Part shown: piece after piece, positions 28,575 through 30,913 of the stretch | Position numbering within the stretch: position 1 is the first letter of the stretch | Layout of the letters: each line of letters begins with the position of its first letter | NCBI GenBank assembly: GCA_028704155.1 | Contig: JAQVLN010000011.1 | Location: 1-33,572 of the forward strand | Direction of reading: 5' to 3' | Length of the DNA: 33,572 nt | From: Desulfitobacteriaceae bacterium | GTDB taxonomy: Bacteria; Bacillota; Desulfitobacteriia; Desulfitobacteriales; Desulfitobacteriaceae | The notes under the pieces: model-generated | What the model was told of the DNA's origin: nothing | What the model saw: only the letters and a program-made list of their open reading frames with translations | The model's database searches: none | Translations under genes and position numbers: made by a program

Positions 28575-28648
28575 AAATCACAGAATTAATCATTATGATT
28601 AATTCCAATGACATGAATTCAGAATGTGATCCGGCTGGGGGGATGGTC

Positions 28649-29998
28649 TTGGATAATGAGATTAAGGAATTAAACGCTGTTGCTCAAGAAATTGAAAAAG
28701 TTGCCCGGAGTCTGGGTTTGGATTTTTTCCCCGTATACTTTGAGGTTTGTCCGGCAGAAGCGTTATACACGTTTGGAGCTTACGGAATGCCGGTACGTTT
28801 TACGCACTGGAGCTTCGGTAAAGCTTTCCACAGGCTTAAAACTCAATATGACTTAAACTTAAGCAGGATCTACGAACTCGTCATTAACTCCAATCCTTCT
28901 TATGCTTTTTTGCTTGAGGGTAATAAGCTTATCCAAAATAAACTGGTTATTGGTCATGTATATGCCCATGTTGACTTTTTCAAAAATAATCGCTATTTTA
29001 AAAATACACCACGGGATATGGTTGAACGAATGGCTGCTCATGCCCAGCAAATTCGCAATTATGAATTACAGTATGGTCAGTATACCGTTGAAAAGACAAT
29101 CGATGCAGTATTCTCCATTCAGGAACATGTTGATCCACGTTCTCATATTGGACGAAGAAAGTTGGATGAGAAAGAAAAGAAGTTGACTAAAAAAAGCAAT
29201 CCCATAAGTTCGGTTTATGAGGATTTATGGTCTATGGCTGAAAAAGAAGCAGAAGTAGAGATTACTAAGAAAGTAGAGTATGAGGATTTACTGCTTTATC
29301 TTATTGAACATGCTCCCAGCCTTCAGGAGTGGCAGCGGGATGTCGTAAGCATGATCAGGGATGAATCACTCTATTTTTATCCTCAGATGGAAACAAAGAT
29401 TATCAATGAAGGCTGGGCAACCTTCTGGCATTCCAGGATTATGCGGGAAATTGGAATTGAAGACGGCGAAACTATAGATGCTGCAATAATGCATAGTCAA
29501 GTAGTTCAGCCTTCGCGCGGAGCTTTAAATCCTTACTATTTAGGTGTTAAGATCTGGGAAGCTTTGGATAAAAAGTACGACCGGGCAACACTTTTTGATG
29601 TTCGGGAAGCTGAAAATGATGTTTCCTTTATCAGGAACTACCTTGACAAAGAAATTATCGAAGAACTGAATCTATTTAATTTTCGCAAAATGGGGGCTCA
29701 ATGGCAGGTAACTGATACGGCCTGGAAAAAGGTCAGAGATAACCTGGCCCAACAATTAGTTCGTGGCGGAAATCCGACCATTGTCGTTTGTGATGGAGAT
29801 TATGGGGATAAAGGAGGCTTGCTTCTCAGGCATTGTCATGAAGGGCTTGATCTGGATTTAAAATATCTGGAAAAGACATTGGCTTATGTTCAGTATCTAT
29901 GGGGTAAACCGGCATATCTTGAAACAATCATGGACAACAGGAAGCTGATATTTGAGTGTCAGAATGGTCAGGTGACAAAAACTCAGCAGCAGGATTAG
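28649..29998 (+). CDS. spoVR: SpoVR family protein
   Basis: A 449-residue protein with the SpoVR hallmarks: GLDFFPVYFEV near the N-terminus, HVYAHVDFFKNN, NEGWATFWHSRIM in the middle and a C-terminal nucleotide-like region (NPTIVVCDGDYGDKGGLLLRH). In B. subtilis loss of SpoVR affects cortex formation; the mechanism is unknown. It completes the prkA-yhbH-spoVR operon, separated from yhbH by 74 bp. An ATG at 28595 is in frame but has no SD. TTG 28649 is 6 nt behind GGGGGG, and an ATG at 28643 lies in the same run, so the start is approximate. It is followed by an interrupted hairpin. Confidence 0.92.
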   Translation: MDNEIKELNAVAQEIEKVARSLGLDFFPVYFEVCPAEALYTFGAYGMPVRFTHWSFGKAFHRLKTQYDLNLSRIYELVINSNPSYAFLLEGNKLIQNKLVIGHVYAHVDFFKNNRYFKNTPRDMVERMAAHAQQIRNYELQYGQYTVEKTIDAVFSIQEHVDPRSHIGRRKLDEKEKKLTKKSNPISSVYEDLWSMAEKEAEVEITKKVEYEDLLLYLIEHAPSLQEWQRDVVSMIRDESLYFYPQMETKIINEGWATFWHSRIMREIGIEDGETIDAAIMHSQVVQPSRGALNPYYLGVKIWEALDKKYDRATLFDVREAENDVSFIRNYLDKEIIEELNLFNFRKMGAQWQVTDTAWKKVRDNLAQQLVRGGNPTIVVCDGDYGDKGGLLLRHCHEGLDLDLKYLEKTLAYVQYLWGKPAYLETIMDNRKLIFECQNGQVTKTQQQD

Positions 29999-30056
29999 GA
30001 GATGTCGACAAATGATATCTTCTTCTTTTTTGATAAAAAGAAAGGGTTTTTCGATT

Positions 30057-30102
30057 ACTTGCTAGAATGTATTAAAGGTTTTGTACCTTTAATACATTCT
30101 AG
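30057..30102 (+). terminator. Terminator-like hairpin of the spoVR operon, interrupted by a small element
   Basis: ACTTGCTAG begins a 22-nt left arm (30057-30078). After a 7-nt loop, the right arm runs 30086-30102 for 17 nt and its last five bases plus a TTTT tract are found only after the 129-bp element, at 30236-30243. The remaining 17-bp hairpin is still strong but is no longer followed by T residues. Confidence 0.8.
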
Positions 30103-30231
30103 GAGCCTGTTGCAAAAGTAGTTTCACTGAAAGTTGATGTCCGTATTTAGTACAAATGGCATATTTATAACACTATATATTGTGGCTTTTAAGACGTGCA
30201 AAATTGATTTCTGGTGTTATGAAACAGGCTC
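30103..30231. mobile_element. MITE-like non-autonomous element, 129 bp
   Basis: Terminal inverted repeats GAGCCTGTTGCA and its partner (GAGCCTGTTTCA when read inward from the other end) match at 11 of 12 positions. The element is flanked by direct copies of CTAG (30099-30102 and 30232-30235), a 4-bp target-site duplication. It has no coding capacity. Ends of the type GCCTGTTGCA are seen in several IS families, but which transposase moves it cannot be told here. Confidence 0.75.
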
Positions 30232-30292
30232 CTAGCAAGTTTTGCAATAAATATTGTTGATGTTAAGCAAGTTGTTTATTAAAGGAAGTGGT

Positions 30293-30913
30293 TTGAATTT
30301 GGAAGTTATTCTGATGCAGTTAGGACAGTTTATTATAGAGTTAATCTCGGGCTTGGGTTATGTTGGTGTATTTTTAGCAATGGCGATTGAAAGTGCCTGT
30401 ATTCCTTTACCAAGTGAAATCATATTGCCTTTCACAGGCTATATGGTCTTTTTAGGACATTTTGATCTCAGATATGCAACTTTAGCTGCCGTACTCGGTA
30501 ATTTATTTGGAGGATTGGTTGCTTATTATATTGGCGTTTGGGGCGGGCGGCCCTTTCTTAAACGTTATGGGCGTTATTTCCTAATAAATGAAAGAGAATT
30601 GGCCTGGACAGAGCGGCTTTTTGCCAGACATGGGGAAATAACAGTATTTATTGGGCGGCTGTTGCCAGTAATTAGAACGTTTATTTCACTTCCGGCCGGA
30701 ATTGCCCGTATGAATGTCTTTAAGATGTCCTTATATACAATATTAGGCGCCTTACCCTGGTGTTTTATCTTAATTCTTGCCGGCAAAAAATTAGGGGAAA
30801 ATTGGGACAGCCTAAAGTCATATTTCCATCATTTCGACTTGATTATTGGGGTCATAATAATTCTTGGTTTAGGTTACTGGTTATGGCAGCGTAAAAAAAA
30901 GCAAAAAAAATAA
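30293..30913 (+). CDS. DedA family membrane protein
   Basis: A 206-residue integral membrane protein of the DedA/SNARE-associated family. It has the ESACIPLPSE motif on the first re-entrant segment, GNLFGGLVAYYIGVWGGR, and the conserved GRLLPVIRTFISLPAGIARM block with its essential Arg residues. Relatives act as lipid scramblases or undecaprenyl-phosphate/phosphatidylethanolamine transporters, and as membrane-potential-related proteins. The C-terminus is Lys-rich (RKKKQKK). A longer frame (from 30254) has no SD; TTG 30293 is 5 nt after AAGGAA. The promoter may be provided by or lie near the upstream element, since no clear one is visible after it. Confidence 0.88.
   Translation: MNLEVILMQLGQFIIELISGLGYVGVFLAMAIESACIPLPSEIILPFTGYMVFLGHFDLRYATLAAVLGNLFGGLVAYYIGVWGGRPFLKRYGRYFLINERELAWTERLFARHGEITVFIGRLLPVIRTFISLPAGIARMNVFKMSLYTILGALPWCFILILAGKKLGENWDSLKSYFHHFDLIIGVIIILGLGYWLWQRKKKQKK

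Follow-up and report, generated by a model that had tools for sequence, protein, structure and literature searches.

Within the IS1182 family, insertions of the staphylococcal elements IS1272 and TnSha1 at terminator hairpins have been documented (PMC4923244, PMC5678879), and IS1272 enters hairpins without duplicating its target and deletes part of the hairpin in doing so (PMC5678879, PMC4923244). Bacterial MITEs, among them MITEAba12 with 1-22 copies per genome, are reviewed in PMC10969869. The element described here is likewise short and non-coding, with terminal inverted repeats, a target duplication and tens of copies, some within genes, but it differs from elements such as MITEAba12 in having its own sequence, a strict CTAG target and unusually uniform copies. 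Its ends are of the GRG-NCTGTTGCAAAA type, as in the IS1182 family (NF033551) and its non-autonomous derivatives; unlike IS1182 elements, it is 129 bp long without a transposase, and its putative helper was seen with a CTAG on the left side only. IS1272 replaces or partly deletes its hairpin and follows no rule of sequence; the present element, by contrast, duplicates CTAG without any loss and for the most part disregards hairpins.

We analyzed a 33,572-nucleotide stretch of DNA (the window), which is contig C82 of a Desulfitobacteriaceae genome of 2.26 Mb in 185 contigs. The element (30103-30231, plus strand) lies between spoVR, which encodes a SpoVR family protein (28595-29998, plus strand; open reading frame and profile, 60-72% identity to relatives), and a dedA/UptA-like gene (30299-30913, plus strand; open reading frame and profile). 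Comparison with relatives, whose dedA genes start TTGGAAGC... downstream of an AGGAGG-like site, places the dedA start probably at the TTG at 30299. Window sequence and repeat search locate one CTAG at 30099-30102 and the other at 30232-30235, with 129 bp between them that carry no open reading frame of at least 60 aa. The left terminal inverted repeat GAGCCTGTTGCAAAA (30103-30117, plus strand) and the right one GAGCCTGTTTCATAA (30217-30231, minus-strand reading; repeat search and end comparison) agree at 11 of their 12 outermost positions and at 13 of the outermost 15, confirming the 11-of-12 repeats of the original prediction.

That prediction also held that the empty site can still be read, and this proved correct. 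When the element and one CTAG are taken out, joining 30102 to 30236, the sequence becomes ACTTGCTAGAATGTATTAAAGG-TTTTGTA-CCTTTAATACATTCTAGCAAGT, a perfect 22-bp stem with a 7-nt loop, which fold prediction of the joined sequence renders as 23 pairs and a 5-nt loop. The left arm ACTTGCTAGAATGTATTAAAGG occupies 30057-30078 (plus strand; sequence, repeat search and fold), and the first 17 nt of the right arm, CCTTTAATACATTCTAG (30086-30102, plus strand), still pair. Displaced by the insertion are the right-arm base CAAGT (30236-30240, plus strand) and a short TTTT tract (30240-30243, plus strand) whose first T doubles as the final stem base. The stem thereby loses its lowest five pairs, leaving an 18-bp hairpin (30062-30079/30085-30102) of about -25.7 kcal/mol, compared to about -35 for the empty site. 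In a shuffle test of 30057-30106, 0 shuffles folded as well (z -7.8); together with the many genomic copies reported below, this shows that the arrangement did not arise by chance.

The 137-bp CTAG-element-CTAG unit, searched against its own genome for the further copies that had been proposed as a check, gave 45 BLAST matches, of which 19 were 100% identical, corresponding to roughly 35-50 near-identical copies. We tabulated 33 distinct full-length sites and observed a CTAG on each side in 33/33, in agreement with the proposed insertion and CTAG duplication. A second subfamily, 88-92% identical to the window copy, has more symmetrical ends, with 14/15 positions of the inverted repeats matching. 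The element is thus a MITE by all structural criteria tested, namely size and coding capacity (roughly <600 bp, non-coding), terminal inverted repeats, target-site duplication and dispersed copies. It represents a new family of a known, ordinary kind of element and leaves the general understanding of MITEs unchanged. Its transcript can self-fold at -28.7 kcal/mol, which is not exceptional (z -1.4), and an Rfam search returned two matches only, with E up to 1 and both far under the family gathering scores.

A further ~15 copies are partial, nearly all of them broken at contig ends and most after 114-123 bp, as a short-read assembler behaves at a near-identical repeat. In this genome ~15 contigs start or stop inside the element, so that this short repeat accounts for part of the fragmentation of the assembly. 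Tandem copies have a single CTAG in common, as expected if the CTAG adjoining an element is itself a target. One tandem pair, on contig C121 (L039:1447-1716), begins with a mosaic-looking copy whose left half resembles the second subfamily and whose right half resembles the main one, which suggests recombination or gene conversion between subfamilies. On contig C155 (L037:1309-1368), beside a tandem pair, we noted an IS-like end or palindrome, GGGGACTGTTGC...GCAACAGCCCC, that also abuts CTAG and may belong to a related element of IS1182 type sharing this target.

Several copies have split genes, and each of the three sites tested for this gave a recognizable gene. A PHO4 phosphate transporter is divided into a left piece matching profile positions 1-38 and a right piece matching 40-266; an MBL-fold Lactamase_B gene is divided by another copy into pieces matching 4-86 and 123-196; and at a third copy a profile search recognized the left piece as a Nudix domain, interrupted at the Nudix box. 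As the insertion adds 133 bp (129+4), the reading frame is shifted. We weighed the possibility that in-gene copies are spliced or excised elements; given the 133-bp frameshift, and with the three split genes not obviously essential, simple disruption is enough. A copy on contig C41 (6209-6345, L016) splits an ABC-transporter ATPase gene whose two sides join imperfectly (DEPTAGL / LEEYVLV...); the sequence suggests that a stretch of perhaps ~80 codons is missing, possibly deleted when two copies within one gene recombined. This Desulfitobacteriaceae genome records a young burst of a CTAG-specific MITE: its empty sites are legible by eye, and several genes were split only recently.

The spoVR-dedA gene order is kept across the family. 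The element was absent from 22/22 relative spoVR-dedA spacers examined, as judged on relatives that are ~60-72% identical in SpoVR, with matches there of 9-15 bp that were not significant; the same 129 bp as ancestral sequence at this site, the finding named in advance as refuting an insertion, was thus not encountered. The spacer in the window measures 318 bp, which falls to 185 bp when the insertion is discounted, and compact spacers of relatives are mostly 144-304 bp. Among 60 other genomes searched, the element occurred only in the same-genus genome G001, as one 85% copy with CTAG at each side; searches of G001 for spoVR and for dedA gave 0 matches each. Plasmid records contained no match to the element or to the IS 5' end described below, and viral contigs no match to the terminal inverted repeat. 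The window insertion is real and recent.

A candidate source of mobility is a longer element beginning GAGCCTGTTGCAAAAG(T/C)AG, to whose 5' end we observed nine matches in this genome, some of them very short. These IS 5' ends and the MITE are identical over the first 15-19 bp, a stretch that takes in the left terminal inverted repeat. Most of the well-preserved ends have CTAG just before them, one has CTGG, and their open reading frame starts MLGKQ(D/N)QQ. One 5' end, at C105:412-600, has an internal deletion and is joined to an IS1182 DDE segment, which matches NF033551 at profile positions 250-303 (E 2e-11, 43.5 bits against a cut-off of 270) and also Pfam DDE_Tnp_1. Every NF033551 match in the genome fell under the family cut-off, the assembly has no intact IS1182 transposase with these ends, and a search by inverted-repeat pattern found no right end of the IS in this genome. 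The helper is therefore known only by its left end and by fragments, and its assignment is good but incomplete. Contigs C70, C90 and C91 stop 124-142 bp into this longer element, which would fit an intact IS in multiple copies that the assembly collapsed and the binning left out. From the sequence, the mobilizing source of the MITE is most likely an IS1182-family element, and its intact right end would be expected to resemble ...GGTGTTATGAAACAGGCTC or ...TTTTACAACAGACTC.

In other genomes, the IS 5' end gave a single weak 42-bp match, in G001. Detection of inverted repeats around the IS1182 transposase genes of relatives yielded mostly noise but also a few plausible ends that resemble those of the MITE (GGGGCTGTTGCAAAAC, GGGTCTGTTGACAAAC) and flank these genes, and recognized no CTAG duplications there; a literature search for a link between IS1182 and CTAG found none. 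At two loci in relatives, L189 and L198, IS1182-type transposase genes are bordered on both sides by one and the same long sequence of near-perfect inverted-repeat or hairpin form, for example TAAGAAGCACCCATTTCTATGGGTGCTTC, perhaps a duplicated target palindrome.

Near-identical CTAG-flanked insertions occur in many copies, split genes, are absent from relatives and have ends in common with an IS that bears part of an IS1182 DDE domain. We consider it highly likely that the element is a recently active MITE, moved in trans by an IS1182-family transposase and targeted to CTAG, and that the hairpin was hit by chance. The transposase would recognize the element's ends in trans and put the element into CTAG, with TCTAGA preferred, duplicating four bases; cut-and-paste with a 4-bp stagger is the presumed route. 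The CTAG at this locus would have chanced to sit in the right arm of the hairpin 3' of spoVR, so that the five lowest pairs were split off and the hairpin was a bystander, probably a chance target. The idea that the 129 bp are instead ancestral spacer sequence lost by relatives has almost no probability: dozens of near-identical copies stand elsewhere with the same CTAG flanks, several of them splitting genes, the hairpin is perfect only without the element, and no relative examined carries it.

How the target is chosen allows more discussion. CTAG is scarce in the window, with 16 occurrences where a second-order Markov model predicts 39 and base composition 117. At the 25 sites that do not adjoin another copy (non-nested sites), T before CTAG and A after it make up 48% of flanking positions, compared to 19% at background CTAGs (Fisher p 8e-5), so TCTAGA is favored; as read from these sequences, the target rule is CTAG itself, preferably as TCTAGA. 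A transposase that recognizes hairpins, with CTAG secondary and the window insertion revealing the rule, would recall the insertion of IS1272 and TnSha1 into hairpins and terminators (PMC5678879, PMC4923244), and perfect stems of 8 bp or more do lie within 15 nt of CTAG at 4/25 sites versus 1/108 background CTAGs (Fisher p 0.004). However, CTAG falls inside a stem arm at the window site alone (1/25 sites versus 0/107 background), about half of the sites are in long open frames without a hairpin, and once the comparison is limited to sites that do not lie in such frames, the excess falls short of significance (3/12 versus 1/26, p 0.08), since terminators are themselves intergenic. The suggestion in the original prediction that CTAG within palindromes is the target rule is not supported by this stem-arm count and the lost excess. 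IS1272, moreover, makes no duplication and partly deletes its hairpin, whereas the window insertion duplicated 4 bp with no loss of sequence. We regard a primarily hairpin-recognizing transposase as improbable. A weak effect of hairpins on targeting may exist; a helper that reads CTAG aided by nearby hairpins, with MITEs favoring transcript 3' ends, would stand midway between insertion by sequence and the insertion by structure of IS1272, and we consider it unlikely. With CTAG as the preferred target, IS1182-type elements would contain both a sequence rule, in which CTAG is duplicated, and the structure rule of IS1272.

Alternatively, the insertion could be regulatory, converting a terminator into read-through or a new 3' end and coupling spoVR and dedA expression, an explanation we consider very unlikely. 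In its favor, the T tract is displaced from the stem, as had been pointed out in the original prediction, and the element's RNA is able to self-fold, but that fold is unexceptional and the same element is found at dozens of loci unrelated to this one. The further claim of read-through from spoVR to dedA is weakened by the surviving 18-bp hairpin, the weak T tract and an intact second terminator-like hairpin upstream (29997-30023, plus strand; followed by TCTTTTTTGA; 1 found versus 0.2 expected in shuffles), which overlaps the spoVR stop, has the better T tract and is unaffected by the insertion. Whether the interrupted hairpin is a terminator is itself uncertain, because its stem is A/T-rich, its T tract has just 4 residues, one of which belongs to the stem, and the hairpins of relatives at this position are without a T tract. 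A search of 29900-30400 for sigma-70-type promoters gave no match; in relatives, a conserved promoter-like stretch is common ahead of dedA (...GGTCTATGGTAAAATACCCACGG). Judging from the sequence, a strong read-through effect into dedA is unlikely. Hairpins at the equivalent position occur in many relatives, and in Desulfosporosinus-type genomes (spacers L105-L120) one of them, AAAGCAGATGTTAGAAATAACGTCTGCTTT, is kept just 3' of spoVR, again without a T tract; this conserved hairpin is possibly an mRNA 3' stabilizer.
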